From positions 377,464-441,463 of the forward strand of contig JABFRR010000008.1 in NCBI GenBank assembly GCA_013141065.1: DNA of 64,000 nucleotides, in the 5' to 3' direction. The notes beneath the pieces were generated by a model, which worked only from the letters and a program-made list of their open reading frames with translations, made no database searches and was not told where the DNA came from. This DNA comes from Bacteriovoracaceae bacterium (GTDB lineage: Bacteria; Bdellovibrionota; Bacteriovoracia; Bacteriovoracales; Bacteriovoracaceae). Shown here one piece after another: positions 15,392-63,748 of this stretch; the first letter of the stretch is position 1; every line of letters starts with the position of its first letter. Position numbers and translations under genes: made by a program.

Positions 15392-15399
15392 GAGTTATT

Positions 15400-17373: not shown

Positions 17374-17387
17374 CATTTGGATACAAA

Positions 17388-43611: not shown

Positions 43612-43917
43612 AGCAAGCCCCCTTATACAATCTTATCGGCATGACTGTAATAAAACATTACAGGTCAATGTCACTATATCACAATTAACCAATAAAATGT
43701 AACAAATTATTACATTTTATTGGTTCTAATAATTTCATTCAGTTATCTCATCTTGTTACTTTTGGAAGAAGGTTTAGCAAATTGTTCTCCATGGCGTTCT
43801 CCACCTGGATAACGAATAACTTTCATGGAGAACGGGGTTGGGAAAAGAACATGAACCATGAAAATTCAGTCACTTACTCATGGAGAACGCAAAACACGCA
43901 GTTCGAAAGCTTTCGCT

Positions 43918-43935
43918 CCGTCTCCGCCATTTTTA
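43918..43935 (+). repeat. attR-like copy of tRNA-Ser(GCT) 3' end
   Basis: CCGTCTCCGCCATTTTTA identical to 23775-23792. Confidence 0.75.
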
Positions 43936-44008
43936 CAATCAACTAAATCTCCTATTGAATTTTAGCCTTGACCGTTACGGGCTTAATCGTTATAAAGTTT
44001 TCATATGC

Positions 44009-44085
44009 GCAGTCGTAGCTCAGCTGGATAGAGTACTTGACTACGAATCAAGTGGTCGCAGGTTCGACTCCTGCCGATTGCGCCA
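44009..44085 (+). tRNA. tRNA-Arg (ACG)
   Basis: Acceptor GCAGTCG/CGATTGC, D arm GCTCAGCTGGATAGAGT, anticodon arm CTTGA-CTACGAA-TCAAG, T arm GCAGGTTCGACTCCTGC, CCA encoded. Confidence 0.93.
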
Positions 44086-44095
44086 TTTTAAGACC
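44073..44095 (+). repeat. att-like repeat 1 of 4 (tRNA-Arg 3' end)
   Basis: GCCGATTGCGCCATTTTAAGACC; identical at 58058-58080, variants at 60488 and 63749. Confidence 0.8.
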
Positions 44096-44294
44096 ACAGC
44101 AACTACCCGACATTATGGACATTTTTACGTTTTTCTGACGAAAAATAGCCGATTCTATGTTCGTGTTGTTTGTCGTGAAATTATTGAGATATTTATAATA
44201 AATTGATGTCGATGAAAATGTTCAAAAAGTTCCACATTACACCCAAAGAGATTTTTCAGCTAAAATTATTCTAACCAGATTAGAAGGATTTAAT

Positions 44295-45146
44295 ATGCCA
44301 GCTTTTAGCCAAATTCAAAATGAATATTTTCATTCATCACATGGAGCTTTTTCACCAGTAAGTGAGTTAGATGAAGCAAATAAGGCCCAGATCACCTGTA
44401 CTGGTTTTGAATACGAAATACTAATTGAATTTTTTCAATTACAAAATATTCATGTTGGCGCTGTTGGATTAAACAGGGCCTTGGCTGAAAAAAGTTTTTA
44501 TAACGACAATGTCGGAAAGTTTATTACTCTTCCGCTAACATTCCCTAAAGCTGGAAAAAATGAACTAAGACTTTACATGAGAAAAGGTGATGACTTTTAC
44601 CCTAATGCCAATCAGATTTGGTATTTATATAAAAGAAACAATGAAGATTTTTTGCACATTGGCTTTATTGACCCAACAGATTGGGAAATTTTATCTTCAG
44701 GCAATGATCCAGTTATTAATGAAGATATAGATGATGAAATATATCAAAATAATTTGCAGAATGTTTTAGCTCGAATGCCTGCAACAACAACGACAAGTCA
44801 GTATCCTCGAAGTTCAGCCGTTGCTAAAATTGCAACAGATCGCGCGAATGGGCTATGTGAAGTTGATAATACCCATGAAACATTTGTGACTTCTGCTGGC
44901 AGTAGCTATATAGAGGCTCATCATTTGATGCCAATAAGTCAGCAACAAAATTTTGAATATAGTTTAGACCACCCTAGTAATATCGTTATCATGTGTCCTA
45001 ATTGTCATAGAAAAATTCACTATGGAAGCATAGAATTGAAATTATCCTTAATTGAAGAACTATATCAAAGAAGAAGAGCAGAGCTTGGCACTCAAGGGAT
45101 TAATTATAATTTTCAACAATTAAAAAGCGTTTACAAAATTCCTTAA
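44295..45146 (+). CDS. HNH endonuclease (candidate restriction enzyme)
   Basis: ORF 283 aa; LCEVDNTHETFVTSAGSSYIEAHHLMPISQQQNFEYSLDHPSNIVIMCPNCHRKIHYGS. Confidence 0.85.
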   Translation: MPAFSQIQNEYFHSSHGAFSPVSELDEANKAQITCTGFEYEILIEFFQLQNIHVGAVGLNRALAEKSFYNDNVGKFITLPLTFPKAGKNELRLYMRKGDDFYPNANQIWYLYKRNNEDFLHIGFIDPTDWEILSSGNDPVINEDIDDEIYQNNLQNVLARMPATTTTSQYPRSSAVAKIATDRANGLCEVDNTHETFVTSAGSSYIEAHHLMPISQQQNFEYSLDHPSNIVIMCPNCHRKIHYGSIELKLSLIEELYQRRRAELGTQGINYNFQQLKSVYKIP

Positions 45147-46336
45147 ATATCAAATTGCTTTACAATTTCTTTTACAACAGGAACAACGACAGAGTTACCA
45201 AATTGTTTATATGAAGGCGCATCGCTATCAGGTAAAATAAAGTTTTCTGGAAACCCAAGTAATCGAGCACATTCTCTTGGAGTTAATTTTCTTGGATTTT
45301 TACCTTCTTGAGGAATTAAACATTCTTTTCCATCTTTTCCATAACGAGCAACAATAGTATTTGATGGTTTTTCAATATCAGCCGTAAATGCTGTGAAGCC
45401 AGTACCTCGTTCAAGGTTATTGGCAGTTCTACGTTGATGACCAGCCCATAATTTGTCGGAAATTGTATATTTGGATAATGGATTTGTTTCCAATATACTT
45501 TTAAGAGCAAGCGGTTTTCCGTCAATTTTGGGAAATTCGAATTTTTTATTTTTGTCTCTATAGCAAACCATAAAACAACGCTTACGTCTTTGTGGCACAA
45601 GGGAACTAGAGTCGATTATTGAATCTTCAAAACTATAGCCTAAATGATCTGTAATAGTTTTTTTAATAACTTCAAAAGTTTTACCGTTATCATGTGATTT
45701 TAAATTACGAACATTCTCTAATAATAAAACAGATGGCCTCATTATTTTTGCAATTCGAACAACGTCAAAGAATAGAGTTCCTTGAATCTCGTCTTCAAAG
45801 CCGTGCTTTAAACCCAAAGAACCTCTTGCCGAAACACCAGCATGACTAAATGGTTGACATGGAAAACCAGCAGCCAAGACATCATGTTTTGGGATTAATT
45901 TTTTTAAATCGGCGTCAGAGATATTTTCATTGGTAAATTTACGAATGTCACCAAAGGGATATTCTCCAAAGTTTTTAAAATAAGTACTTTGAGCAGCCTT
46001 GTCCCATTCACTTGTAAAAACGCACCTTCCTCCAATTTCCTGTAAAGGTAATCGGAATCCACCAATTCCAGCGAAAAGGTCAATGAAATTAAAATGCGAT
46101 TTAGGATTAGGCAAAAATGGAAATTGTGAAAAATCAATAATTACATCTTTATCAGAATTTACATTTAAAATTTTAATCCATTCTTGTTTGTCTTTATTAG
46201 ACAAAAAGATAGGAACAGATATCGGGTTTTGTAGCCAATGAGTAATAACAGCATACAAAGTAATGTCGTCTAGCTTGTCAGAATTATTTTTTTTATAAAA
46301 ATCGAATATTCTACCTAGGGCAATGTCAAAATGCAT
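45143..46336 (-). CDS. DNA (cytosine-5) methyltransferase, convergent with HNH gene
   Basis: ORF 397 aa; NFIDLFAGIGGFRLPLQEIGG, AAGFPCQPFSHAG, LLLENVRNLKSHD, QRRKRCFMV, TPRECARLLGFPENF...KQFGNSVVVPVV. Confidence 0.93.
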   Translation of the reverse strand: MHFDIALGRIFDFYKKNNSDKLDDITLYAVITHWLQNPISVPIFLSNKDKQEWIKILNVNSDKDVIIDFSQFPFLPNPKSHFNFIDLFAGIGGFRLPLQEIGGRCVFTSEWDKAAQSTYFKNFGEYPFGDIRKFTNENISDADLKKLIPKHDVLAAGFPCQPFSHAGVSARGSLGLKHGFEDEIQGTLFFDVVRIAKIMRPSVLLLENVRNLKSHDNGKTFEVIKKTITDHLGYSFEDSIIDSSSLVPQRRKRCFMVCYRDKNKKFEFPKIDGKPLALKSILETNPLSKYTISDKLWAGHQRRTANNLERGTGFTAFTADIEKPSNTIVARYGKDGKECLIPQEGKNPRKLTPRECARLLGFPENFILPDSDAPSYKQFGNSVVVPVVKEIVKQFDI

Positions 46337-46351
46337 TTTGGGCTCCGATTT

Positions 46352-46564
46352 TTAGTCATTATTTTTTTGTTCGTTCTTTTCAAATTCTTGCCAGCCTACG
46401 CTGACCAAAGTTTCTATCACTTCAGATTGGCTATAGTTATATTTTTTGGAAATTTGCTTAATTTTTTTCACAATTGAATTGGGAAGACGAACAGTTAGAG
46501 CGCTGTCTCTTTTTTCTTTTTTGAAAAATAATTTCTTGTCTGTCCCTTTAATCATGTATTGCAA
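46352..46564 (-). CDS. Ribbon-helix-helix family small regulator
   Basis: ORF 70 aa; SALTVRLPNSIVKKIKQISKKYNYSQSEVIETLVSVGW. Confidence 0.7.
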   Translation of the reverse strand: MQYMIKGTDKKLFFKKEKRDSALTVRLPNSIVKKIKQISKKYNYSQSEVIETLVSVGWQEFEKNEQKNND

Positions 46565-46925
46565 ATTGTCATATTAAATAATCAATATCGCAATACATTT
46601 TTAATGTCATCGTCACAAAGTTTCCTAAATGCCCACTTGTCGCAGGGCCCCGCAGTATTCTTGACACATATAAATTGATTAGGGATCATCGTTTAATGAT
46701 TAAAAATTTGGGTAAGTTAAAATATTTTATTTTAAAGAAAGATGACCTAAAGGGTCTTAAGCGAACAGATTTCGTTCAATTTACGATTGATAATCGTATA
46801 TATAAAATTCCAGTTATAATTATCTTAGATCGCTTCAAGAAAAGTGTTGATTGGAATAAAAATGATGTTCATAAACAATCTAGCTCTGTTCCGAAATGGA
46901 TAGAGAGAGCAAATCAAAAATAAAT

Positions 46926-47921
46926 TTAAAAATCGATCGCAAACCCAATTCCCAGTGAAATTGATGTTTTCTTTTCTTTAATAAACTTTCGTGGTTCAGC
47001 CTCAACAAAATATTTTTCGCCATATCTAAGGCCAATGCCGATATAGTTTGATTTGCTTGAATAGCTATTTTCAATGTCGCCACGAGGTGTTTCTTGAGTC
47101 GATTTAAATTTTATAGACGTAATTCCATATACTGGGGAAATACGAAATTCAGAAATTTTGAAAGCGAATCCCAGGCTTAAATCATATCCAGCATGGCCAT
47201 AATATTCGTTGGGCTTGCTTGTTTCTGGTTTATCTTTGCCCGAAACGAGCAGAGATACGCCTATTTTTAAATATGTGTTCCATATAATTAATGTCGAAGC
47301 ATCAGCTCCAAGACCGACAAATGAAACGTTTTTAAGTGAAGAATCTGGATTATTAATCGGAAGACTTATCGTTGAAAGGGTAAAGCTAATGGATTCTTTT
47401 CTAAGTTTTGGTGCAGAGTAATCTTCTTTAATGTTTTTTAAATATGTCAGCGCTGCTTCACTTTGATCAATTCTTTCGACTTCTTTTATTTCAGAAGTCA
47501 GTGCAGCTAGTTGACTAAGTTTTTGCATATTTTCACGAAGTACTTCTAACTCTTTTTCTTTCTCAGAAATCAGCATGTCTATTTCTTTACGATCGATCAT
47601 CATTGTCGATTTTTTCTGTGGAAGTATAGTGTATTGTAATCCTCTGTCACATATAAACTTTTTATTAACTTCAGAACAATCTGTTCGCATTGGCGAAATG
47701 ACATATGCCTGATTTTTACAGTTTTCAGATTCATTACAGAATTTTTTGAATTCATTCTTAGCATTTTCTAATGATAAATCTCTAGCGGTATCGAGTTTGT
47801 CAGCTTCTGAATGTCCACAAGCATAGAAAATATTATCTTCAGCTTGCGAAGCAGCTTCTTTACAAAGCCAAGATGCTTGAGCATTAATTGAAAATATTAA
47901 AGTGAAGATAATATATTTTAT
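46926..47921 (-). CDS. Exported hypothetical protein, apparent ATA start codon (or start-lost pseudogene)
   Basis: Supplied ORF 46926-47690 extends upstream without stop for 77 codons to IKYIIFTLIFSINAQASWLCKEA (signal peptide) after a GAGG Shine-Dalgarno; the initiation position reads ATA, not ATG. Confidence 0.6.
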   Translation of the reverse strand: MKYIIFTLIFSINAQASWLCKEAASQAEDNIFYACGHSEADKLDTARDLSLENAKNEFKKFCNESENCKNQAYVISPMRTDCSEVNKKFICDRGLQYTILPQKKSTMMIDRKEIDMLISEKEKELEVLRENMQKLSQLAALTSEIKEVERIDQSEAALTYLKNIKEDYSAPKLRKESISFTLSTISLPINNPDSSLKNVSFVGLGADASTLIIWNTYLKIGVSLLVSGKDKPETSKPNEYYGHAGYDLSLGFAFKISEFRISPVYGITSIKFKSTQETPRGDIENSYSSKSNYIGIGLRYGEKYFVEAEPRKFIKEKKTSISLGIGFAIDF

Positions 47922-47963
47922 AAAAACCTCATGTTTTAGATATTTATAAAAAATAAAAACGAA

Positions 47964-48461
47964 TTAAAGGCAACGGCTTGAGCAATTACTATCTTTTTCG
48001 CAATTAAATACAAAAGTTTGAAACATATTGTTGTCTTTCTTTTTTAAACTAATAGAAAGAAATCGATTATTTTTATCATAATCAGGGCTTTTTTCACCAG
48101 AAGTGTAAATGTCATATTCTGGGTTTAGTTCAAATATTTCAGGCTTCGTAATCTTTACTCCGCCTGCCAATATAGCAGTTCCAGTTAGAGTAATTTTCGT
48201 ACCATCAAAACTAAATTTACCATTCATTTGCATGTTTTTTTTCTGACTAAATGAAAAATTTAATTCCTTGTCCACCTTAAGATCATAACAAATAACACGA
48301 GAGTCACTATCTACTGTATAATAAACAAAATTTTTCCCTATAAAAAAGTTAGAATTCAATATTTTATATCTTTCGTACATGTCATGTTTAAAAGTTTGTT
48401 TAAGATTACTCATGTCTGTTTTAGAAAATGCCGACGTAGACAATGCAAGAAAATTAAAAAC
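47964..48461 (-). pseudogene. 3' part of an exported protein gene split by an IS5-like element (5' part at 49442-49462)
   Basis: Removing 48465-49441 and one AAT copy restores MKLLFIVFNFLALSTSAFSKTDMSNLK... Confidence 0.88.
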
Positions 48462-48464
48462 AAT

Positions 48465-49441
48465 AGACCTCTTTCATAACCCTGTTTTTACCTTCTGATG
48501 TTTGTTAAAAATCGAGGCAATAATTGTAAATCTTATTCCAAATCTTTTTCGTCGATTTCGATATTTTTCTGCAATAATCCTGAATCTTTTCATTTCGCCA
48601 AATACATTTTCTATCTCAACACGCTCCGAAGATATTTCTCTGTTGATTCTTCTATCTTCTTCTGTAAGTGGATTTTTTTTATTTCTCTTCTTAGGCAATA
48701 GGCTATTGCTATGTAACCTTACGATTCCCTGGTAACCTGAATCAACTGAGACTCTGGTTTTCGGTAGAAAACAAGTTTCACTTTCTTTGAAAATTCTAAA
48801 ATCATGAACCTTTCCAGTGTCTTGAGCGATTGAAATAATTTGCTTGGTACCAGGGCAGTAAACTACTTGGGTTTTTATCGTGTGTTTTTTCTTCTTTCCC
48901 GAGTAAAAATCCTTTTGAATGTTCTTAACTCTACCTGATTTCTTTTTTTTGGACGTTCTATTGGGGATTCTGTTACATCTATTAAAAAATGGTCATGGTT
49001 TTCACTCAGGCATTCTTTCTTACCAGGCAAAGTAAATTGGCCTGACTTTATTAAGATTTTTTCATTTTTTACAACCATTCTCCAAGCTGTAGTTTCACTA
49101 ACATTATAACTTGATGCTACTGAAAACAAAGTACAGTATTCACGATAATATTGAAGCATTAATAGAATCTGGTCTTCAATAATTAATTTTGGTGGCCTTC
49201 CACCTGCAATAAATTTTTTATTTTCAAAATCTTGGATTACTTGAACCATTTCTTCAAAAACAAATGGCCTCACTCCAGTTAAACGTAAAAATTTATCTTC
49301 ACAATATTTTTGTACAGTAGTCCAGCGAATACTCATAAATCTGCCTCAGTTATTAACTTTGACAGTTGGCCATAATTTTACTGAATGGCCAACAAAAAAA
49401 ATCTTAAATGGCCTTACATTTGAAGGTTATGAAAGAGGTCT
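48465..49441 (-). mobile_element. IS5-family-like element (977 bp)
   Basis: 17-bp perfect terminal inverted repeats AGACCTCTTTCATAACC; flanking AAT direct repeats (48462-48464, 49442-49444). Confidence 0.92.
48474..49336 (-). CDS. IS5-like DDE transposase in two frames (orfA 48875-49336 + orfB ending 48474), A8 slippery site
   Basis: orfA reads ...DVTESPIERPKKRNQ; frameshift at A8 gives FYSGKKKKHTIKTQVVYCPGT...VHDFRIFKES...VSVDSGYQG...EHVxGxMKRFRIIAEKYRNRRKRFGIRF-like DDE_Tnp_4 sequence. Confidence 0.85.
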
Positions 49442-49467
49442 AATAAATAATAACTTCATAAAACCAC

Positions 49468-49782
49468 CTAATTAATTTTTTCTACAGTCACTTTATATTG
49501 AGCTTTCCCATCAGTAAACGTGCTTTGAAATAGAATCAGTTTTTGTTGTTCACTGGCCCTGCCACCAAACAATAACTTATCAATTGAGATTTCCAGATGC
49601 TCACTTAATGTTTTTACATGATGTAAGTTCTTAGCTGACGGCAAAGTACCGTGAAGCCATCCATGTAAAACAGATGGCGGTATTGAACATTCTTTTGCTA
49701 GCGAATTCAAAGTCAACTTTCGAACCTTTAGCTCGACTTTTAAAATATCTTGTAATTTAATTTTACTCATTAGTATAATCAT
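49468..49782 (-). CDS. Xre-like HTH regulator
   Basis: ORF 104 aa; VRKLTLNSLAKECSIPPSVLHGWLHGTLPSAKNLHHVKTLSEHLEISIDKLLFG. Confidence 0.7.
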   Translation of the reverse strand: MIILMSKIKLQDILKVELKVRKLTLNSLAKECSIPPSVLHGWLHGTLPSAKNLHHVKTLSEHLEISIDKLLFGGRASEQQKLILFQSTFTDGKAQYKVTVEKIN

Positions 49783-49849
49783 CTGACTTTACTCAATATT
49801 TCCCATTCATATTCAGTCTGCCGAATACTATATTCAGTCGATTGAATTA

Positions 49850-51253
49850 TTAACTGATCAGTTCAATTCGTTTTCCATCAATCAAACTATTCATTTTGGC
49901 TTTTTTGTTCAGCATTCCTGCCAAATGAATATATTGCATCGTTGTCTCTTGTTTTGTGTGGCCCAGCCATTGCTGAATTAATAAGAAATTTTTCGTTTCA
50001 CCAGCAAGTAGCGTCGCTCTTGAATGTCTTAAACAATGCGGAGACTTCGCTCTAAGTTTTAAGTTCTTATATGCTTCGGCCAATGCACGTCTTACTTTTA
50101 TTCTTGTGACATTGGGAAAAAATAAATAATCCTTTTTATCACTACCGTGAAGTCTACGATCAAATTTTTCAGCTTCACGATTAAAACATGTCGCTAAAAA
50201 ATTAAATGCCATTTTATCAATGATTGGAATTGTTCGTGAGTTTTCTGGGGAAATGTCATATTTAGATTTTAATGGCTTTCGAACCACTATCCCTGATTGC
50301 TCATTTCGCACTGGATATTCTTTTGGCTGAGATTCTAATACTAAATAGCCATGACATTGATATCCATATTGACCAAAACTATCTAGTAGTCCCTCTGGTT
50401 CTCCTGGAATAAAATCATCTAGCGATAATCCAAACGCCTCATTTGAGCGTAATCCAGTGAAGTAAAGTACTCGATAATAATCAGCGATCTCCTGATCTAA
50501 CGCTCTCAATTCGCCGTATACCGCTTCAAACTCGTTAGGCAAAACGACATCATCAATCGTTCTTTTAAATTTTCTATTTTTATCAATTGAAGCGCAATGT
50601 TCGATTGATTTTATAATTTTCTTTTCTTTTAAAAATTTAATGAAATTATTAAGTGATTTGATACAATTTGTTTTAGACGCATTAGAAATACCTTTATTTT
50701 TATTTGTTGTAAGCGTAGCTGTATCATTTAACCAATTTTTGAAATCTATATAATTATCTGGCCATAGCATTGGATTGTTTAAGTTGTTTTGTCCCAAAAA
50801 CCAAAACAGAACATAGTTCTCAAGATAAAAATTTGTATTCTTAAAACTATTCGGTGCTCTTTTCGGCATCCACTTTGTTTTAAATTCATCCAATAAGCTA
50901 CTATAGTCTAAAAATTTATTTCGCCATGCTTGAAGTCTTGAGAACTCTAATCGTCTGACTTCCATCGACATTGTTAAAATTCGCTTAGCATCTATTGCTT
51001 GCTCTTCATTAGTTGGCGTTTTGCCATATCGTTCAATAATTTCAGATTCTCGAAGCCTCACATTTGTCTTGTTGTTGTGACAATAATAAATAAATGAATA
51101 TTTTGTAATACCTTCTTTTGAAATGCGCTTTTCTATTCTCATAAGTTCTCCTATTGCTGACGTGCTACCATCATACAAAGTCGAGTCAATCTCCATCTGA
51201 TAACTTAAATATTTATTACGGAACTGTATAATGAGCACTGGAGATGAAAACAT
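49850..51253 (-). CDS. Tyrosine recombinase/integrase of the tRNA-Arg element
   Basis: ORF 467 aa; LYFTGLRSNEAFGLSLDDF; SPHCLRHSRATLLAGETKNFLLIQQWLGHTKQETTMQYIHLAG. Confidence 0.88.
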   Translation of the reverse strand: MFSSPVLIIQFRNKYLSYQMEIDSTLYDGSTSAIGELMRIEKRISKEGITKYSFIYYCHNNKTNVRLRESEIIERYGKTPTNEEQAIDAKRILTMSMEVRRLEFSRLQAWRNKFLDYSSLLDEFKTKWMPKRAPNSFKNTNFYLENYVLFWFLGQNNLNNPMLWPDNYIDFKNWLNDTATLTTNKNKGISNASKTNCIKSLNNFIKFLKEKKIIKSIEHCASIDKNRKFKRTIDDVVLPNEFEAVYGELRALDQEIADYYRVLYFTGLRSNEAFGLSLDDFIPGEPEGLLDSFGQYGYQCHGYLVLESQPKEYPVRNEQSGIVVRKPLKSKYDISPENSRTIPIIDKMAFNFLATCFNREAEKFDRRLHGSDKKDYLFFPNVTRIKVRRALAEAYKNLKLRAKSPHCLRHSRATLLAGETKNFLLIQQWLGHTKQETTMQYIHLAGMLNKKAKMNSLIDGKRIELIS

Positions 51254-51506
51254 GACATACTTAAAAAAATCTGAAACAAATTTTAACTTTATTAATCAAA
51301 TAACTTATCTGATGGAAACTGATCAAATAGAACTGGCCCTTGAGATTGTTTATAGAACTTTTGATCAATTATCTTTATTAGAAAAAAATCTTCTTACGCT
51401 TAATCTTATTGCAGCTACCGAACAATACGATATAAAACCTTATCGCTTACCTGAAAGTTATTTTGATTTCCTGTCAAGTCACGAGTCTGATACCATATTC
51501 TTCTAG
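51231..51506 (+). CDS. Hypothetical small protein
   Basis: ORF 91 aa; divergent from and overlapping the integrase 5' end. Confidence 0.4.
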   Translation: MSTGDENMTYLKKSETNFNFINQITYLMETDQIELALEIVYRTFDQLSLLEKNLLTLNLIAATEQYDIKPYRLPESYFDFLSSHESDTIFF

Positions 51507-51775
51507 TTCCCGGGATCCGATCCCCTTTTTAAATTCTTTCTTCCGATGCTTATCTTTTCTCCTCTAAACTTCTCTGAAATATTAAACACAACAATTTTTC
51601 CACCCTTTACTTTTCTTGTATGAAGTAATTCTGCGTTTCCATATTTTGGGCATGATTTGCCCTTACCTAGCGCTATAAGTTCTTCGACAGTTATACCAAG
51701 TTTATCAGCTTGAGCTTTAATTTTGCTTTGTAAGCCGAGATTTACGTTTTCTTTGGATTTTGCAAATATCATATA
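51503..51775 (-). CDS. Hypothetical small protein, shorter start preferred
   Basis: Within ORF 51503-51952; MIFAKSKENVNLGLQSKIKAQADKLGITVEELIALGKGKSCPKYGN. Confidence 0.4.
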   Translation of the reverse strand, partial: YMIFAKSKENVNLGLQSKIKAQADKLGITVEELIALGKGKSCPKYGNAELLHTRKVKGGKIVVFNISEKFRGEKISIGRKNLKRGSDPGN

Positions 51776-52116
51776 TGTACCCCCACTATGTTTTGCATAT
51801 CGTGGCACAGACAAGAGATCTAGCAACAGAGATCTGACTAATAATGAGAAAAATGTTAGGCCCTCGCCTAGTCCACGCACTATAGATTTAATATCAAGAG
51901 ATTTAAGCCAATGAACATATAACGACATTAATTGACTTGGACTAAAGCTCATATAGCGTATAGGCGCTGATATGTTTGTATTTAGTTTGTCGAAAAAAAT
52001 TCAGTATAGTGATTAAGTTATTCAAGCGACAGAATAAAAGTAATTTCAATTAAACAAATACCGATAAGGTAAAGTAAAAGAATTTTTCTAATCTAAAACT
52101 AAAAAAAGGATAATTT

Positions 52117-53007
52117 ATTAAATTTAAATGGCCATTTCTTATCCTATTTATTTGTTCATGTGCTCATCAAAAGGACCTAGCACCAGAAGATTTACCAAGT
52201 TGTGATGATTCAATTGTAAAACACTTAAAAGATCATCGTTATGAAGAAATAATAAGATCATTACCAGCTGGCGGCAGTGATCCAACTGCATATTGTTCAA
52301 TTAATAAAAAGACTAAACTAAATGAAGTGCAATTAGCTAAGCAACTAGAAGCGGTGGCAATTTATTACAAACTATGTGCTAACAATAAAACTTCAAGTAT
52401 CAAATCTGATAATGATAACAATGCTGAAGATGATGGTAGTCCAGATGCCACTGGAAGTGATATTGATGAATCAGATGTCGGTAATAAGAAAAATGCAATA
52501 AATGAAAGTAAAAAAGCATGCGGAATTGATAGTAATTTGCATGATTCACTTGTTAAATTAAAAAACATTACAGGATTAGATTTTGAGTTTGAAACATTAG
52601 AGAATGAAAAACTTATAAGCGCCACGATAAAAGAAAATGATATTGAAGAGGCCTTAGCCTTAGAGCATAAAAACAAAGAGGAAAATGAAATAAAGGCTCA
52701 AAACAAAAAGCATGATGATTATCAGAATAGTCCAGAATCATTTTATAACTCTATGTGTGGCTTTATAACCTTAAAAAAAGGCTATGAAAAATCTATTGCT
52801 AGAGAAAAACAAGTAGCGAAGATTTCTGGCGTTGTAGATAAAAATGCATTGTATGATTATGGCAAAAAAATTCTTAGTATGGATGATTTAATAAATAATA
52901 TTAGTGAAACCTTTAAAGCCAAGTTTAAGAAGAACATAGATCGGAACAAATGTGTCTGTGTAAATGATAATAAAGCAATATTGAGTATTTCATGTTCTGT
53001 TAAATAA
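52117..53007 (+). CDS. Lipoprotein, apparent ATT start codon (or start-lost)
   Basis: ORF 52327-53007 extends upstream in frame to IKFKWPFLILFICSCAHQKDLAPEDLPSCDD (lipobox) after AAGGA; the initiation position reads ATT. Confidence 0.55.
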   Translation: MKFKWPFLILFICSCAHQKDLAPEDLPSCDDSIVKHLKDHRYEEIIRSLPAGGSDPTAYCSINKKTKLNEVQLAKQLEAVAIYYKLCANNKTSSIKSDNDNNAEDDGSPDATGSDIDESDVGNKKNAINESKKACGIDSNLHDSLVKLKNITGLDFEFETLENEKLISATIKENDIEEALALEHKNKEENEIKAQNKKHDDYQNSPESFYNSMCGFITLKKGYEKSIAREKQVAKISGVVDKNALYDYGKKILSMDDLINNISETFKAKFKKNIDRNKCVCVNDNKAILSISCSVK

Positions 53008-53084
53008 AAGCGTTATAAGTAATGAGCACTGATTATTTCCAATATTTTAAATTAGAATCAGTATTTATGTTTATTATACGGATA

Positions 53085-53102
53085 TGTATATGTAGGGATA
53101 CG
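53085..53102 (+). repeat. Iteron-like repeat 1
   Basis: gtatatgtagggatacgcc. Confidence 0.65.
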
Positions 53103-53110
53103 CCGTAATG

Positions 53111-54295
53111 TTATGTGGTTAAATCTTTAGACTTGGCCATATATTTTTTCATATTGTCCCAAGCTCTCTTGGGTTTGAGTTTACGATCAGGCTTATCCAA
53201 ATAACCCTTTATCGATTGAACCCAATTAAAAAATCGGTCTGGTGTTTCATCTTTACAGAAATGCCAAGCAGCTTTAAATATTTCATCTTCCCAATTTTCA
53301 TCTAATATTTCTGTTGGTAAATTTTCGACATGTCGTCTATTAGACTGATATAGATGATACGACTCAATTATTGCGGCTTTAAGCGTGCCCTTAGCGCGAT
53401 AATCGAGCGCTTTATATCCCTTGCCATAATTTGGGTCAGTAATTTCTAATTGGCCTAAATCGGTTAATAAGCACATCCACTTACGTATAGTTTTTGTGTC
53501 TACTAATAATGTTTTGGCAAAATGCTCTTGTGGTATTGGGTTTCGGCCAAGACCAATTTTAAGTTTAGTAGATGGATCAATTGAAACCAGATTATGTTGA
53601 GCCATTAATATTCTAATAAATTCTTCATATTTGCGTTTCATTGGTTTGGTTGATTGCTGATCTATAATTTCTTGAAGCTTTCTAGGGATTTTGACTGGTG
53701 ATTTTTTATATTCAAATTTCTTTTTCTTTTCATCTGATATTTTAATAATTGGTTCAGGTGCGTGAATTTGGTTGTAACGATTAACCAGCTTTTTTATAGA
53801 AAATTTCTTATCTGTGTCTGAGCTATAGGCAATGGACGTTGAACAATAAAAGAAATGAGTTGCATCTATGGCCTTAAGGTCAATTTTTAATTTCAATGTT
53901 TCTGATATCGCGATTATTAGGCTTTTATAAGTAGCTAGGTCATATACATAATCATCAAGAAAAATTAACAAACGATATCTTTCACATGCTGGTTTTGAGC
54001 CTTTAGTTATAAGGTTGGATTTTGTCGGTGCAATTATATGACAAGTTTTAATTAATTTTTGATGGATTTGTTTCATGTTAAGTTCTTGAAGGTCGTCAAT
54101 ATCTAGAACTAATATGTTGGTCTTGGCCCAATGAAAATGAGATCTATAGGGTGGATTGAAAAAGCCAGTGCTGTAATGAGATCGAGTTATAAAGGTAGAA
54201 ACGTCGTTGACCGTATAAAATATTTTAATTTTACCAGTTGGAAATCCAACGTCTTTTTGTTCTAGAAAGAAGTATTTAGTTTCAGTGTTTGTCAT
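53111..54295 (-). CDS. Archaeo-eukaryotic primase (AEP)-like replication protein
   Basis: ORF 394 aa; ILVLDIDDLQ (DxD), APTKSN...ERYRLLIFLDDYV, LKAIDATHFFYCS spaced like AEP motifs I-III; C-terminal helical/winged-helix-like region. Confidence 0.6.
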   Translation of the reverse strand: MTNTETKYFFLEQKDVGFPTGKIKIFYTVNDVSTFITRSHYSTGFFNPPYRSHFHWAKTNILVLDIDDLQELNMKQIHQKLIKTCHIIAPTKSNLITKGSKPACERYRLLIFLDDYVYDLATYKSLIIAISETLKLKIDLKAIDATHFFYCSTSIAYSSDTDKKFSIKKLVNRYNQIHAPEPIIKISDEKKKKFEYKKSPVKIPRKLQEIIDQQSTKPMKRKYEEFIRILMAQHNLVSIDPSTKLKIGLGRNPIPQEHFAKTLLVDTKTIRKWMCLLTDLGQLEITDPNYGKGYKALDYRAKGTLKAAIIESYHLYQSNRRHVENLPTEILDENWEDEIFKAAWHFCKDETPDRFFNWVQSIKGYLDKPDRKLKPKRAWDNMKKYMAKSKDLTT

Positions 54296-54375
54296 ATGTT
54301 TTATTCAAGATTAATTGTTCTAATCTATATTATACAACTTAGATAATATTACATTGATTATTATTGTATGGATTA

Positions 54376-54394
54376 GTATATGTAGGGAAACGCC
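54376..54394 (+). repeat. Iteron-like repeat 2
   Basis: gtatatgtagggaaacgcc. Confidence 0.65.
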
Positions 54395-54484
54395 ATGAGA
54401 TCAATATTTTGTAGCATGCTTAAATTCAGAAAAATTTCATTAATTTATTATAAAGAGATTAGTTAATGAATATTATATGGATAA

Positions 54485-54502
54485 TATATGTAGGGAAATA
54501 CA
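54485..54502 (+). repeat. Iteron-like repeat 3 (3' half degenerate)
   Basis: atatatgtagggaaatac. Confidence 0.6.
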
Positions 54503-54719
54503 GGACAAAATAGCTGGTAAGTTTCAATTTTAATGATTTCAGATCGAATAAATAATTCAAAATTAAAGACCCATTTCTTTTAATTAAAAAAATATCAAAA
54601 TATTAATTACCGATTTAAAAAATAAATGAAAAAAGTTCGCGCCACTTACGCCGTGCGACGCGCCGTGATATAATCATGGTGAAGCATTCGCTTTATAATA
54701 TTTTTTTTAGAGGTAAAAA

Positions 54720-57257
54720 ATGAAAATGAAAGAAAACGAAATTCTCTATGGACACGGAAACTTAACTGGAATTGTTAGCGTCGAAGCTCGGGCAAATGGT
54801 GAAGTAAGTATTTGGCGAAGAGTTGATGGTAAAATACAAAAATCAACAGATATCTTTGAACCATTTTGTTTAACAAAAGATGAAAACATTGCAAATCATT
54901 TGATACAAAACGGAATAAAGGTAGAGACACTAAAAGGCGATTTACCGTTTCGTTTTAAAATATTAATGAGAAATAAGAATAAGATAAATCGATTATTCGA
55001 TGATTTCTATAAAACAGCTGACTTTGATATTTGGAAAGACCCTCGTTTTGATTATCCTAATTTAACGTCACAATATTTAATAAGTTCTGGGAACTCTTAT
55101 TATAAAGGCCTTGGCTTTGACGATGTCGTGAGAATGGCAATGGATATTGAGACCACGGGGCTAAATCCAGAAACCGAGAAAGTATTTTTAATCGCAATTT
55201 CAACAAATAAAGGAAGAAAAATCATTCTAGAAGAACAAAATGAATTCCTCTTACTAAAAAAATTAGCTTATACAATTCAAGAAATTGATCCAGACATCAT
55301 AGAAAATCATAATATTTTTGGTTTTGATCTAATATTCTTAGAAAAAAGATTTTTTCATCATGGGATAAATTTTAATTTTGGTAGAAGTAATTGTCTTCCA
55401 TATGAATCATATTCTTACTCCGATATATTTTCTGCAAATGATAATAAAGATAAATATTTTACTCGGTTTCATATCGCTGGCCGTGAAGTTGTGGACACGA
55501 TGCAGTTATGCCAAAGATATAACTCGATAACTAGAGTTGTGAAAAATGCCAAATTAAAAGATATGGCGAAACATTTTAATCTTAATGTTAGAAACGAAGA
55601 ACCAATTCCCGGTGATCAAATTTACTTAGAATATCAAAAAAATCCAGAAAAGGTAAAACGTTACGCACTCGCAGACGTAAATGAAGTACAGGGTATTGCC
55701 AATATTTTATTAAGAGATAGATTTGAGCTGGTTAAGTTAGTTCCCATCAGATTTGAAAAAATTTGTACTTGTGGAAACACGAACATAATTGAGTACCCAA
55801 TGATTAGATACTATTTAAAAAACAGTCATTCAATTCCAGAAAAATCAGAAGAAAGAGAATACTCTGGAGCCAAGCCACGGGCGTTGCATGTGGGGTATTT
55901 TGAAAATATTTGCAAGATAGATGTTGCTTCAATGTATCCAAGCATAATAATTGAAAAAAAATTCGGACCGAATTATAAGCAGTCAATTGAGAAAGACCCA
56001 CTCGATGTATTTATCAATAGACTTGAAGCGCTAAAAGAAATGAGACTCGGCTTTAAAAAAATGGCCAAAAATGGCGTTGATTCAACATCTAAATCAACTG
56101 AAAAAGCTTTAAAAATTATCATCAATGCTTCGTACGGTTATCTTGGTTCACCGAATGCGAAGTTCAATAATTATGATAGCGCAGAGGCGGTGACTACTTA
56201 CGCGAGAGAAGTTGTAGATGGCATTGAAAAACAGATTGCTAATAAAAAATGTATTCCTCTTGAGACTGATACAGATGGTGTAATTTGCAAACTAAGTGAT
56301 GATTTAACACCGTCTGGACTTGAGTATGAAATAAATAAATTTCTGAAAAAAACACATCCAGGAATTTTTGTAGAAGCTGAAAGTAAGATAGCGTGGAAAA
56401 GTATTTACGTATATAGAACTAAAAATTATGCATATATAAATGAAAAGAATGAATTGAAAATAGTTGGCTCTGCATTTCATAACAAATCTCAGCCGATTTA
56501 CTTTGAACGATTCACCGCTGAAATGTTAAATCTAATTCTTCGTGGAGAGAGTTATAAGTTTAAAAACACATTTCTTAAGAAAATCTCAGAGATCGAGAAT
56601 AGAAACTTATCAATATTAGATTTTGCGAAAAAAGATTCAAAGATTGGTTTGTGTTACAAATCTCTCGATGGCAATAAAAAGGTTGAAAAATATTTAAAAG
56701 ATTATGACATTGAGTTTTATCGTAAAATATTAATAAAAAAAGCGTGGATGTTTCGGCAATGTTTTAATGAAGTCGATTATGCAAATTTCATTCTTAATCA
56801 ATCAGATGTAGATTTATTTTTAGAAGGAAAGACATTTGACTCAGAAATTGATTTTAAAACACCCGAAGAAGTTAAAACAATGACATTGGGAAAAACTTTG
56901 TCTGAAGAACTGGAAGTAATAAAGTGTTTAAACTTGGAACTGAATAAGTTTGTTCAAAATGAATGCAGGCTTATGTTAACAAGTGTTAAATATAAAAAAG
57001 TAGATACAAAAACATCTGGTTTTAATTTAGAAATATCTTACCTTGATGAATTTAATCAATACGAAGAAGAAAAAATTGTGCGATTTCTAAAGATTGATTT
57101 AAAAAAATGGAAAACTCCATCTATGAGTTCATTTAAAAAACAAGAAAACTTTAAATATTTCATGGAACTTTTACTTAAAGATCTTAACTTCAACAAGGCC
57201 TTGTCCTATATAATGACAGATAAATTAACAATAGCGAATCTATGGGATTTCTGTTGA
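54720..57257 (+). CDS. Family B DNA polymerase with 3'-5' exonuclease
   Basis: ORF 845 aa; ExoI MAMDIETTGL, ExoII IENHNIFGFDLIFL, ExoIII RYALADV; pol motif A KIDVASMYPSIII, motif B KALKIIINASYGYLGSP, motif C LETDTDGV. Confidence 0.93.
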   Translation: MKMKENEILYGHGNLTGIVSVEARANGEVSIWRRVDGKIQKSTDIFEPFCLTKDENIANHLIQNGIKVETLKGDLPFRFKILMRNKNKINRLFDDFYKTADFDIWKDPRFDYPNLTSQYLISSGNSYYKGLGFDDVVRMAMDIETTGLNPETEKVFLIAISTNKGRKIILEEQNEFLLLKKLAYTIQEIDPDIIENHNIFGFDLIFLEKRFFHHGINFNFGRSNCLPYESYSYSDIFSANDNKDKYFTRFHIAGREVVDTMQLCQRYNSITRVVKNAKLKDMAKHFNLNVRNEEPIPGDQIYLEYQKNPEKVKRYALADVNEVQGIANILLRDRFELVKLVPIRFEKICTCGNTNIIEYPMIRYYLKNSHSIPEKSEEREYSGAKPRALHVGYFENICKIDVASMYPSIIIEKKFGPNYKQSIEKDPLDVFINRLEALKEMRLGFKKMAKNGVDSTSKSTEKALKIIINASYGYLGSPNAKFNNYDSAEAVTTYAREVVDGIEKQIANKKCIPLETDTDGVICKLSDDLTPSGLEYEINKFLKKTHPGIFVEAESKIAWKSIYVYRTKNYAYINEKNELKIVGSAFHNKSQPIYFERFTAEMLNLILRGESYKFKNTFLKKISEIENRNLSILDFAKKDSKIGLCYKSLDGNKKVEKYLKDYDIEFYRKILIKKAWMFRQCFNEVDYANFILNQSDVDLFLEGKTFDSEIDFKTPEEVKTMTLGKTLSEELEVIKCLNLELNKFVQNECRLMLTSVKYKKVDTKTSGFNLEISYLDEFNQYEEEKIVRFLKIDLKKWKTPSMSSFKKQENFKYFMELLLKDLNFNKALSYIMTDKLTIANLWDFC

Positions 57258-57478
57258 ATCTAAATTGATTAAAATATTTTAAATAAATACCTATTTGAGT
57301 TGATTATTCTCGTTTAATATATCAAATGAAATGGGCATTTATTTTTTAATAAGAAAATATAAAGTAAAACCTAATAACTTATTTGTTGTTATTTTTCACA
57401 ACGGCTAAGTGTGTTACTCTGTTTTTAACAGAGATGCATGTTTAAGCATGCACTTCTCTTTAATGTTTTGTACGAGAG

Positions 57479-57691
57479 GTGTTTATGAAAAATTCTGACA
57501 ATGTTTTATATCTAAAGCAAAAAAATGGTCTTTATTCATTTTATCCTGAGGTTATTAGTGAAAACAATATTCTCAAAAAAATTAAATTTAAAATAAATAA
57601 GCTTAAAGAATTATCAAAAGTAACAATTAAATATGGACAATTGAAGCCCCGAAAATATATTTTAATATTTCAGTTTCCTGAAGATTTATAA
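57479..57691 (+). CDS. Hypothetical small protein
   Basis: ORF 70 aa after gagaggtg RBS-like sequence. Confidence 0.4.
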   Translation: MFMKNSDNVLYLKQKNGLYSFYPEVISENNILKKIKFKINKLKELSKVTIKYGQLKPRKYILIFQFPEDL

Positions 57692-58057
57692 TTAGATAAA
57701 ATTGAAATCTTATGGTTGAGATTTTAGTTTTTCAAAATTTATTCTGATACTTATTAATATATTCAGGTCGCCATCATGACTTCTACCGATATATCAAATA
57801 AATATTGAGAATATTGCTCTAGCGTCCAATTAATCATTTCGTCTCTTTCTAGATATTGTTAAAAATCGGTTTACATCGTTAGCTTGGGCCAAGTGTTGGC
57901 CACGCTACCATATCTTTAAAATCAATCAATCTAAGCGAACATCATAGCTCGTGACACTTACGCGTAGCTCAAAATCAATGAATTTCTGATCAATCTTGTA
58001 TAATGGTCGTTGGCCAAGCTATGATTATCGCTTAACCGGTGCAGTGGTCTGAATGAA

Positions 58058-58080
58058 GCCGATTGCGCCATTTTAAGACC
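58058..58080 (+). repeat. att-like repeat 2 of 4
   Basis: GCCGATTGCGCCATTTTAAGACC, 23/23 identical to 44073-44095. Confidence 0.85.
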
Positions 58081-58253
58081 TGTATAATCCATGGACATTG
58101 CGGGCCTTTCATTAAATTTTTTAGCTAGAAATGGTGCATTCCGTGTCCTGTTTGTTCTACTGGAAATTACGGACATTTATTTTTAAAAATTAACCAATGT
58201 ATTCTTTACAAAATTTCACTATATTTTTTCAATTGAGGTAAAGACCATTCAAA

Positions 58254-59830
58254 GATAGTGTCCCGTTTTATGTGGGATAAGCGTCCGACAATACCAGTTT
58301 AAAGTTTCCAGTTATAATTATTTTTTCTTTCCAAACTTTTTCCCAGCCAATTTTATCCAATGTATAACGCAGCAACATTCGCCCTAGTTTTTCAGCACCG
58401 GCTTCACTCCAGTTGTGAGCGATACGTTTAAAGCGACGAGCAAACTCTCTCATCAATCTTTCAATTACAGACGTCGTTCGATATACTTCTTCACCTGTTG
58501 TTAAAATATATTTTAGATGAGTGAATAATTCTTCTCTGGCATTTCTGACATAGACTGCCGACTTTAAAAACTTATCTCTCTTAAGATGTGCTTCTAGCTC
58601 TTGTAATTTTATTTCTGATTCAGCTATCGTTTTTATTAAATCTTCCTTTGTTTTTTTCTCAAGCGTATCCATACAGTTATTTATAGCTGTGCCAATTATA
58701 TTTTGAAGTTCTCGACATTGAGTTTTACTTCCAGATTCTTGATAAACATAAGCATTTTTTAAAGTCTCTAATGAAGTGCCACTGACACCGCTGCTCATGA
58801 TAAGCTAAATCTTTTAATCCTTTGATTAAGGCAATTTCACCATCTGTAATGAGAACATTTGCAATTGGTTTAAAAGCCAGTTTTTTATTGGTCGGAGAAT
58901 TCGCTTTTTTATTTCATTTCAACGGCCTTCCAGCCCTTCATTATCCATGCACCAATTGGAACTGGACGGTTAAGACTATTAAGCCCAATAACTATCTTCA
59001 GTTCACCTTTTGATCTTCAAAATGAGGTTTATATCCAGTTCCATCGGCCATTAGTGAATTTATATCTTTAAGATTTGTTATATTCTGAAAGTCCAAGTCG
59101 CAAAGATTTACAATCCGATGAACTTCATTTTTATTTAAACCTAATTTCCCAATGAGGTTTAGACTTCTTGCGCTTCTTCTATAACTTTGCTCTAGAACTG
59201 TTTCACAGCATTTCTTTTGAAGTTCATTGGTAAAGTTAATACTTCGATTAAGTCCAAAGAAGATATTAAAAGGAGAATGAGTCGTATTGCATGATGAACA
59301 CCTCATTCGATTTAGACTCAGTTTTAATTTACCGATTCCTGTCTTTACAGTTTTGCTTGTCCGTCCGTGAAGATGCCATTTGTCACATGCGCAGCACTCC
59401 GTTTTTGTTTCGGGATCACTACACCTTCAATGTTATGAATCAGCAGAGAGTCAATATATTCTAGAATAACTTCCAGAATGCCAGGGAGTCCTTTCGCTTT
59501 AAATACTTCTTCAAATTCTAAGACCACTTCATCAAGAGAAAAATCTAATTTTTGTAGACGAATGAGTAAATTCATTGATAAATTCTGTTTCATAGCATTC
59601 CTTTGCTGGTGAATTTGAGTTTTTTGTCGAATAAAAGTTTAAAGGATGAGGAATGCTATATCCATTAAAACAATCAACGCATTTTATGAATTTTTAAGCA
59701 TTTGGCCTGCCCAAATTTTGTACACTCTGTAAGAAGTACCGGACGCTATTGAGAATTTTTTTAGAGCTGTTAAATTGATCTCATTAACAACAACACAGAT
59801 ATGTGATCCCACACAAAACAGGACACTATC
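58254..59830 (-). mobile_element. Degraded mutator-like (IS256/ISLre2/ISH6-type) IS, 1577 bp
   Basis: TIR GATAGTGTCC(C/T)GTTTT(A/G)TGTGGGAT at both ends; 8-bp TSD CATTCAAA at 58246-58253 and 59831-59838. Confidence 0.85.
58268..59593 (-). pseudogene. Transposase pseudogene in several frames
   Basis: Fragments: ...MADGTGYKPHFEDQK..., VLITDGEIALIKGLKDLAYHEQRCQWHF (other frame), TTSVIERLMREFARRFKRIAHNWSEAGAEKLGRMLL. Confidence 0.8.
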
Positions 59831-59857
59831 CATTCAAACTTTAGATGTGGAGAATTT

Positions 59858-60271
59858 ATGAAAAAATGTCTTGGAATTTTATTGCTTACAATTTCAGCAA
59901 GCGCCTTTGCCTCAATTGAAGGAACATATATTGGTGAAAGTTTTGGTTCAGTCGACGTTAAGAAGTGCAGTATTAAAATCATAAAAGCTTCAAGTGGGTC
60001 TATTCTGACTGAAGTTGGAGGATTAACCGCGTCTAATCGATTAATCAAAATTTCTAAAGATAAGAAAAATTCATTCGAAGGCATAGAGACATTTGAAGAT
60101 GATAAATATTATATAGGTGGATGGATGAAGCAGTTTAGAGAGGTGGTTCATCAAGTTACCTTAGAATTAGATCAAAGTGGAAATCCAACTGAATTTACTT
60201 ACTCACGAAACACTTTAGGTGGACAGCAGTCAATTAATTGCATCCATTTAAACTTAGAAAATTCTAAATAA
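59858..60271 (+). CDS. Exported hypothetical protein
   Basis: ORF 137 aa; MKKCLGILLLTISASAFASIEG signal peptide. Confidence 0.7.
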   Translation: MKKCLGILLLTISASAFASIEGTYIGESFGSVDVKKCSIKIIKASSGSILTEVGGLTASNRLIKISKDKKNSFEGIETFEDDKYYIGGWMKQFREVVHQVTLELDQSGNPTEFTYSRNTLGGQQSINCIHLNLENSK

Positions 60272-60309
60272 CACTTAAGTAAATGATATAGTTTAAAAAT
60301 CAGGAATAT

Positions 60310-60342
60310 CCTCAGGTTAAAACCTGGGGATTTTCTTTTTCA
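60310..60342 (+). terminator. Rho-independent terminator
   Basis: atcctcaggttaaaacctggggattttcttttt. Confidence 0.7.
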
Positions 60343-60487
60343 TGAATTCACTAACCTAAAAAATAATATTAAATATTAAAGCTAATTTTTTTTTTTTAAA
60401 CTTTATGAGCGCAATAGAAGTCTTACAAATTTGTAGAGTGGTTTGGATGGCTGACTTGATTGGATAGGCTAAATGGGTCTCAGGTTG

Positions 60488-60510
60488 GCCGTTTGCGCCA
60501 TTTTAAGACA
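60488..60510 (+). repeat. att-like repeat 3 of 4
   Basis: GCCGTTTGCGCCATTTTAAGACA (2 differences). Confidence 0.75.
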
Positions 60511-60775
60511 TGAATAACCACCGGACATTACAACGCTTTTAAGAATTTTTTAACGGAAAATAGTATAATTTATGTCCTACTGTTTGAGCTTAATTTGGGA
60601 GTAACTTATTGAAAAAAGATCCTATATTGACAAGTTTAAATTTTAAGCTAAATTGTCATTATAAAGAATAAAAAGTTTACGATAAGATAGTTAGATAATC
60701 CGCCGATTCCATGTTTATGGATAGGTTCGCTGGGCCTCAACTTTGTTGGGGCCTTTGCTTTTTTATGGCTAAAAA

Positions 60776-61471
60776 ATGAGCGAACAAGATCTATACCCTC
60801 AGTTGAAATCCAAGAAAAAAGTCGTTGTCTATGTTGATGGATTTAACTTGTATTACGGCTGTTTAAAAGATTCTAAGTATCGGTGGTTAGATTTATTAAA
60901 ATTATCAAAACTTCTTCTTAGCGATGAATATGAAATAGTAAAAATTAACTACTTCACAGCACATATCATTGATCATGGTACGAACGGTTCTACTACTCGT
61001 CAGGGTTTTTATCTTAATGCTCTAAAAACTATTCCAAATTTAGAAATAAAATTAGGAAAATTTAAGAAAAGAGAAAAGACCGTTTATGTTAACCCACCAT
61101 TAAAAATAATTAATGAAAATCCATTTGGTTCAGATCAAAGACCTTTATTAAAAAGCATTTTAAAGGGAACAAGTTATGAAGAAAAAGGCACAGATGTAAA
61201 TCTGGCTGTACAGCTTATAATTGATCTTTATGAAAATAATTTTGACGTTGCAATGGTGATTTCGAATGACTCAGATTATTTATCGGCACTCGAAAAAGTT
61301 CGTCAGAAGAAGAAAGGTTTATTTATTATAAATACTAAATTAGATCAACTTCCCCAGCATGAAATGAGACGCTTTAGTATGGGGAAAAAAGTTTTAACTG
61401 AAGAGAAGTTAAAATCGGCTCAGTTTTCAGAAATGGTAGGAAATATTCGCATACCTAAAGAATGGGAATAA
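60776..61471 (+). CDS. NYN domain (LabA/PIN-like) putative ribonuclease
   Basis: ORF 231 aa; KKVVVYVDGFNLYYGCL, GTDVNLAVQLIIDLYENNFDVAMVISNDSDYLSALEKVR. Confidence 0.88.
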   Translation: MSEQDLYPQLKSKKKVVVYVDGFNLYYGCLKDSKYRWLDLLKLSKLLLSDEYEIVKINYFTAHIIDHGTNGSTTRQGFYLNALKTIPNLEIKLGKFKKREKTVYVNPPLKIINENPFGSDQRPLLKSILKGTSYEEKGTDVNLAVQLIIDLYENNFDVAMVISNDSDYLSALEKVRQKKKGLFIINTKLDQLPQHEMRRFSMGKKVLTEEKLKSAQFSEMVGNIRIPKEWE

Positions 61472-62121
61472 ATCGATTAATGAGGCGAACGAAGAAAGTT
61501 TTCTTAACTCTTTTTATCTTCTTGTTATCGCTTACGATTTTTTTCTTTATTAGAACCCCAAGGAAAAGATTAACAGCAGAAATTAAGCATACTCTTGATG
61601 TGAATAGAAAAGAATATTCGAGAAAGAATCTGATTAATAAGAGTGAAGTGATTAACAAGCCGAGTGAATTGTCAGAAAAATCGGAAGCCTCAGAAAGCAA
61701 TCCTTTCAATGTAAAAATAATGCAGAATCAATCTCTAGAAATTTGTAATGATATACCAGCAGAATTTATAAACGATGTAAAATGTAGCGATATAGAAAGA
61801 TTAAACTTAGAAGAAACAGATAAGTTTTTACGAGAAAACCAGAAACATTTATCGACCATTAAAGAATATATAGTAAATAATTCCTATGACACCGTTTCAA
61901 GAATGGTTAGGTTTATTAATCCCAACGCAAGTGAAGAGGAAGCATTTTCAAAATTCGTAAATAATTTTGGACCAGTATTTAACATGATGGTTATTTCACA
62001 CATCATATCGAGCAGAAAGCACAATATACCCTTAGAAGATATCGACCTCTATGCCATTGCCGACGAGTTTGATGAGTTTTCATCTAAGCTTGAAAAAAAG
62101 ATGCCATTTTTGACAAGGTAA
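61462..62121 (+). CDS. Hypothetical membrane-anchored protein, 3' end at or within the IS110 boundary
   Basis: ORF 219 aa; N-terminal TM LTLFIFLLSLTIFFFI; stop codon lies inside the IS110 repeat that starts ~62109. Confidence 0.6.
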   Translation: MGINRLMRRTKKVFLTLFIFLLSLTIFFFIRTPRKRLTAEIKHTLDVNRKEYSRKNLINKSEVINKPSELSEKSEASESNPFNVKIMQNQSLEICNDIPAEFINDVKCSDIERLNLEETDKFLRENQKHLSTIKEYIVNNSYDTVSRMVRFINPNASEEEAFSKFVNNFGPVFNMMVISHIISSRKHNIPLEDIDLYAIADEFDEFSSKLEKKMPFLTR

Positions 62122-62245
62122 GAAAGCAGCACCGCCTTAGGGCGTAATCCACTTGGGCCTCATCTAGGCAAAACCTAGCGTGCCAGCAATTAAGCGTGTG
62201 GATATTAAAATGTTTGTATCTCTATAAACATTTTGATCACAAGGA
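62122..62245 (+). ncRNA. Candidate IS110 bridge RNA region (5' non-coding)
   Basis: ~135-nt conserved non-coding region with nested inverted repeats: gcagcac/gtgctgc, ctaggcaaaacctag, aaaatgttt...aaacatttt. Confidence 0.55.
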
Positions 62246-63298: not shown

Positions 63299-63748
63299 TA
63301 GAATCTCGTTCATTTGATTTCACATGGAAGTGAATTAGGAAACAAATCCCTTTCTTATTCTTGATGACAGGAAAGCGATTGTTAAATTAAACATAAGGAT
63401 TGTTTCGGGTGAATTAGGGATGAAGGATGAGGCCCAATATTTTCATGTCACGCTAATGATAAGCGATGACCATTTTTTGACTGGCACGCCTTCTTTTTAA
63501 ATCCAACATTATCATGGCACATTACGAGGCCCACTAAGATGAATGAATAAGCTAAGGCGAAATTCTGTTTAAGGTAATGGATTAGTTCACAGATAAAAAC
63601 TTCCAGGTAGAAAATCTAATGAAGCAGTCACTGCTCGTGCGAGGTTCGGCGGGCAAAGCGGCTAAACTTTTACTCTTTCTAGAGGAAAGGAGAAATATTT
63701 TTTAGAAACCACTTGCTTTCTTAAAGATGTAAAAAGGGACTGAGGCTT

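Follow-up and report, generated by a model that had tools for sequence, protein, structure and literature searches.

The 64,000-nt window analysed here, i.e. the whole stretch of DNA whose positions are used throughout, originates from a Bacteriovoracaceae genome, a relative of predatory bacteria, and holds an element of about 14.0 kb (44,073–58,080; 13,985 bp from copy to copy of its terminal repeat) inside the tRNA-Arg(ACG) gene. The element encodes a tyrosine integrase, a protein related to archaeo-eukaryotic primases (AEP), and a family B DNA polymerase (PolB), with the AEP and PolB genes divergently transcribed. The core features are given below in order of position, and amino-acid identities refer to a second element in genome G056 (Bacteriovoracaceae bacterium AH-541-E20), which represents another genus.

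44009..44085, + strand: tRNA-Arg(ACG), integration target, 3′ end forming one att site (ARAGORN, Rfam)
44073..44095, + strand: attL, 23-bp exact repeat GCCGATTGCGCCATTTTAAGACC
49850..51253, − strand: tyrosine integrase, 467 aa (PF00589, 5.4e-12; 34% identity)
51231..51506, + strand: small conserved protein (53% identity)
51503..51772, − strand: small conserved protein (60% identity), likely 89 aa from an internal ATG
53063..53104, + strand: element-specific repeat, copy 1, just beyond the AEP stop codon
53111..54295, − strand: AEP-type initiator/primase-like protein, 394 aa (profile relatives, fold match; 52% identity)
54353..54394, + strand: element-specific repeat, copy 2, upstream of AEP
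54466..54500, + strand: element-specific repeat, copy 3, AEP–PolB intergenic
54720..57257, + strand: PolB of G3 type, exonuclease-proficient, 845 aa, with a C-terminal extension of ~150 aa (Pfam, tree, model; 32–40% identity)
58058..58080, + strand: attR, where the 23-bp repeat recurs exactly and the element ends on the right

An earlier note on this DNA had described the region 49,850–57,257 as an integrative element with its own primase-like protein and polymerase. The open reading frames (ORFs) were found intact at the positions listed, and PolB carries the motifs then quoted for it; the region itself stands as the core of the element and not as its whole. The borders are defined by a stretch made up of the tRNA-Arg(ACG) 3′ end and adjacent bases, present as exact copies at 44,073 and 58,058, and among the 18-mers of 43,900–44,300 outside this repeat none recurs downstream within the window. 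In the integrase, the R, HxxR, H and Y catalytic positions were located at TGLR 266, HCLRH 406, LGH 430 and QYIH 440. The tRNA-Ser(GCT) gene adjoins tRNA-Arg(ACG) in same-genus genomes, and one of these (locus L116) has an empty site, reading tRNA-Ser(GCT), tRNA-Arg, and then a homolog of 64942–65475, free of insertion. Since this homolog directly follows tRNA-Arg, the DNA from about 44,090 to a point between 63,772 and 64,942 is inserted in the window genome. The tRNA-targeting tyrosine integrase of the earlier note is thus borne out by domain, catalytic positions, repeat and empty site. Judging from degenerate copies of the tRNA-Arg 3′-end repeat at 60,488 and 63,749, more insertions seem to follow the element in series.

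The 394-aa protein returned no direct Pfam or PDB sequence match, and its AEP kinship was therefore established through relatives and fold. A profile built from the two copies detected the N-terminal domain in another seven genomes of the phylum, where it mostly opens longer proteins that carry DUF5906/SF3, VapE, DnaB_C or DUF3987 helicase-type domains after it. PHROG primase and helicase families matched as well, and in one phage relative the AEP domain is followed by PriCT_1 above cut-off; in the window protein PriCT-1 was below significance. The AlphaFold model is confident over residues ~11–180, and its best PDB match by Foldseek was the AEP domain of cyanophage S-2L PrimPol (E 2.2e-5, probability 1.00), which was the sole PDB match <1e-3 and was followed by LigD PolDom and AsfvPrimPol at weak E-values. 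The viral structure library gave 69 matches <1e-3, including many primase-helicases and RepB/NrS-1-type primases, and in one case a 1386-aa “DNA polymerase”; TM-scores of the structure matches were modest. Residues D65 and D67 (motif I), R108, and D139 (motif III) are invariant in 27 aligned sequences. Judged by these profiles and the predicted fold, the protein is an AEP relative, in agreement with the earlier proposal, with an AEP domain at ~1–180 and, at low model confidence, helices at ~205–234, an HTH-like part at ~253–300, and a helical C-terminus. In many phage proteins of ~700 aa (L075, L078, L088 and others), the AEP domain lies near the C-terminus, after a region of ~430 aa that had no Pfam family in the three proteins scanned.

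PolB matched PF03104 and PF00136 above cut-off, i.e. both exonuclease and polymerase domains, with no match to PF03175. Besides the G056 copy (L034, 8575–11586), its relatives include PolBs from plasmids of Deinococcus (29%) and from phages of Salinibacter (28%). The G3 group of PolBs is characterised by a conserved motif C glutamate, and its viral members are only those of Salinibacter and Nostoc phages (Kazlauskas et al. 2020, PMC7544198). An E-x-DTDG motif C is common to the window (ETDTDGV), G056, Deinococcus and Salinibacter polymerases. In the phylogenetic tree, the window and G056 copies group together (100/100), and with the Deinococcus group at 92/90. Trees set the two apart from host Pol II, T4, phi29, and the pSE-12228-03 polymerase, which we take to be a piPolB and used as its reference; their branches are long and the deep order is unsure, the order of G3 subgroups varying with the row set and losing its resolution in the reduced tree. 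Distances between motifs are short, 64 residues from A to B and 50 from B to C, when phi29 has 134 and 73, so there is no room for TPR1/TPR2-like inserts. Protein-primed PolB and piPolB were ruled out by motif spacing and tree, and a host Pol II paralogue was likewise rejected, as the genome has its own Pol II elsewhere, on a different contig (L001), and the trees keep the two polymerases apart. The model of PolB best matches KOD/Pyrobaculum PolB over ~690 alignment columns, while the last ~150 residues, a longer portion in G056, have no confident model. By motifs and phylogeny the enzyme is a PolB of the EpsilonN-like G3 group and is expected to need a primer, and the earlier assignment to primer-requiring polymerases rather than to piPolB is upheld by motif spacing, tree and model.

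The AEP gene is flanked by a repeat, ATATGTAGGGAWA, of which three copies exist in the 3.58-Mb genome, all within the element and in one orientation; the reversed-pattern control gave 0 matches in the genome. The unit common to the copies is about 30–40 nt. In the G056 element, one related copy directly follows the stop codon of AEP, placed as copy 1 is in the window, and its local alignment score of 23 exceeds the maximum (21) of 2000 Markov-resampled controls. On this basis the repeats are the best candidate for an origin, an AEP recognition site or an operator.

Distribution was surveyed in 132 genomes of the order Bacteriovoracales. The AEP is present in two of them, the window's own and G056, a draft genome with a completeness of 56%, and the set integrase-orf-orf-AEP-PolB is absent from the other 130. 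The G056 element (locus L034, ~5,446–17,550) is placed at the 3′ end of tRNA-Ser(GCT) with CTCCGCCATTTT repeats on both sides, and the gene set, with intact ORFs, is accordingly kept in two genera and in different tRNA genes. Between AEP and PolB, L034 also has a 135-aa cysteine-containing, zinc-ribbon-like protein (11583–11990), which has no counterpart seen in the window element. In a third copy, locus L067 of the G056 genome, most of the integrase survives together with the C-terminal 248 aa of PolB, AEP and the rest being lost, and its att-like ends are similar; the C-terminal portion of PolB is what this deleted copy still carries. The earlier note had named two findings that would speak against it, a product unrelated to AEP and an ordinary chromosomal gene pair. 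The product is AEP-related, and an ordinary pair was rejected, with AEP–PolB confined to two of the surveyed genomes and an empty site in a relative.

Scans of viral contigs with PolB alone, or with the two-sequence AEP alignment, returned no matches; the wider AEP alignment found the domain in 32 loci. Plasmid and phage collections gave no direct AEP match. No earlier description of such an element was found in the open-access literature, where absence is not proof.

The remaining genes of the element are the following.

44295..45146, + strand: HNH endonuclease, cargo, restriction-like (PF01844/PF13391 above cut-off; PADLOC type IV REase-like, 1.6e-10)
45143..46336, − strand: C5-cytosine DNA methyltransferase, cargo (PF00145, 1.1e-81)
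46926..47690, − strand: protein of unknown function, 31% identical in the G056 element (no Pfam match)
48474..49336, − strand: broken IS5-family transposase inserted into the element (NF033581 on two fragments)
49468..49782, − strand: Cro/CI-type HTH, putative element repressor (weak HTH matches)

The two small proteins between integrase and AEP (51231–51772) had no family match in profile scans, and an excisionase or DNA-binding role is possible for them. Terminase or capsid genes were not found among the scanned ORFs of the window element, and none is evident in L034. A casposon was rejected, the integrase being of tyrosine type and the scanned element ORFs holding no Cas1.

Behind attR, the region 58081–63771 consists of stacked remnants behind more tRNA-Arg 3′-end copies, including possible pieces of a mutator-type transposase (weak), an NYN-domain protein (60776–61471), and IS110. 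A second island of ~20 kb (23777–43933), missing from relatives, occupies tRNA-Ser(GCT), the tRNA type also occupied by the G056 element; its ends are exact GTCTCCGCCATTTT copies, and it encodes two tyrosine integrases, a serine recombinase, and a C5-methyltransferase. The two islands each hold one of a pair of almost identical IS110-family transposase genes (33661–34713 and 62246–63298). Additional tRNA-Arg 3′-end copies were seen in other genomes of the genus (L133 in G010:C66, L134 in G016:C63), and a search around the extra copies of G010 and G016 found no genes of the element. Other elements, too, seem to use the tRNA-Arg gene as an integration hotspot.

In two genera, then, an AEP-type protein and a G3 PolB are tied to an integrase and att repeats, in the window together with repeats unique to the element. 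We slightly favour reading this as a tRNA-integrated element with an initiator-primase resembling ColE2 Rep and a dedicated PolB, an analogue of pipolins with split enzymes. The integrase would move the element in and out of tRNA 3′ ends, and the C-terminal helical/HTH part of AEP would bind the repeats around its own gene, which would serve as origin. Opening of the origin would proceed without a helicase, the AEP domain would lay a short primer at the repeats, and PolB would extend it with proofreading, so that copying would be autonomous. Self-replication of the element is what we infer from this gene set. An initiator-primase of this kind has precedents in ColE2 and RepE/PrimHYQ (PMC5862659, PMC4538821); ColE2 Rep, itself an AEP, binds the origin and synthesises a short RNA primer from which Pol I takes over (PMC4538821). 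More tentatively, with the balance tipping somewhat the other way, the element may represent a previously undescribed class of self-copying integrative elements, whose replicon would need no more than two proteins and the repeats: a helicase-free AEP initiator-primase acting at sites around its own gene, and a dedicated proofreading G3 PolB that extends its primers.

Several points weigh against the self-replicating initiator-primase element. No helicase gene was found in the window or G056 element. At position 94 of AEP motif II, His is present in 25 of the 27 sequences, one has a gap, and the window copy alone has Asn, which may weaken or abolish its priming. The archaeal plasmid AEP PolpTN2 is active with Gln at this position, and motif II is relaxed in PrimPol-PV1 AEPs (PMC5862659), so Asn94 lowers the claim of activity and not that of AEP kinship. 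The HTH-like and C-terminal part of the AEP model is of low confidence, and the repeats could be operators. In the element ICETh2 of Thermus thermophilus, the AEP is dispensable for element replication and limits DNA uptake (PMC7693054). The IS5 insertion and the rarity of the element indicate that it may be ageing. The case for a “distinct class” comes from a single bacterial family, with two complete elements and a deleted one, and related AEP and PolB pairs occur in phages.

Given these phage pairs, the module may plausibly stem from a phage. One possible reading is that AEP–PolB once replicated a prophage or phage satellite, now decayed, in concert with phage helicase and structural genes, and today copies nothing alone. 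In the phage locus L071, AEP–AAA_25 adjoins PolB, the G339 prophage combines RepB_primase, DnaB_C and PolB, and in a Salinibacter phage the G3 PolB has a PriCT_1-like protein nearby, which scored just under the cut-off; the IS5 and the remnants in the array fit such decay too. However, a gene set free of helicase and capsid genes is kept with intact ORFs in a second genus, and no structural phage genes were found in either element, which makes a decayed prophage unlikely.

Less probable still is a cargo role for AEP and PolB, in defence or in DNA processing (a barrier to incoming DNA, fill-in, or repair), the element itself being replicated passively as part of the chromosome. The ICETh2 Ppol makes a defence role possible, the element also encodes an HNH endonuclease and a C5-methyltransferase, and no AEP of this family lies within 10 kb of the G3 PolBs on Deinococcus plasmids. 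The unique repeats around AEP, conserved in place in the second element, nevertheless fit an origin or autoregulation better, and the pair had no PADLOC system match beyond weak PriCT2-type and exonuclease similarity. Least probable is a window AEP that is catalytically weak or dead through H94N and is confined to the part of an origin-binding initiator or repressor, with priming for PolB left to host DnaG: the substitution in this copy alone among 27 relatives, and divergent genes with repeats between and around that could be an operator arrangement, would suit it, but the acidic positions of motif I, D139 and R108 are retained, motif II is relaxed in PrimPol-PV1 AEPs, and the G056 copy keeps the His.

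If the favoured reading of a split-enzyme replicating element is true, it would give a biological role to part of a widespread, little-explained group of bacterial G3 PolBs, and a simple, helicase-free two-enzyme replicon open to in vitro work. It would also link phage AEP–PolB modules, fused HelPrimPolB replicases, and plasmid initiator-primases.

Pipolins, which are self-priming, and casposons are among the integrative elements known to have a PolB of their own. Like pipolins, the window element is tRNA-integrated and has a recombinase, att repeats, and its own PolB (PMC7385651). Unlike theirs, its polymerase is of G3 type, lacks TPR-like inserts and is far from piPolB, and priming would be performed by a separate AEP. 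The pipolin-like layout noted earlier consequently holds for tRNA integration, repeats and possession of a PolB and fails for the polymerase type, and the element resembles a pipolin in outline without belonging to pipolins. PrimPol-PV1 elements likewise carry an AEP with a relaxed motif II on a tRNA-integrated element (PMC5862659), a likeness of setting and of motif II; a term search of the text of that article returned no mention of PolB for them. The phage and prophage modules L071 and G339 have an AEP beside a related PolB, but they also have helicase-type domains, and G339 virion genes. In HelPrimPolB replicases and phage 1706 GP55, AEP and PolB work together, and fused relatives exist (PMC7544198, PMC12205980), whereas here the genes are separate, there is no helicase, the PolB belongs to G3, and the setting is an integrative element and not a phage. 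With ColE2 Rep, RepE-RepS and PrimHYQ the AEP protein has in common the absence of a helicase and candidate binding sites near its own gene, and it may also share the order of AEP, helical and HTH-like parts (the C-terminal part is modelled at low confidence). Its sequence family is different from theirs, PriCT-1 reaches significance only in the phage relative, and a PolB is encoded here when ColE2 uses host Pol I. What this element would add to the known ones is a division of priming (AEP) and extension (G3 PolB) between two genes; the repeats that flank AEP are a new observation.

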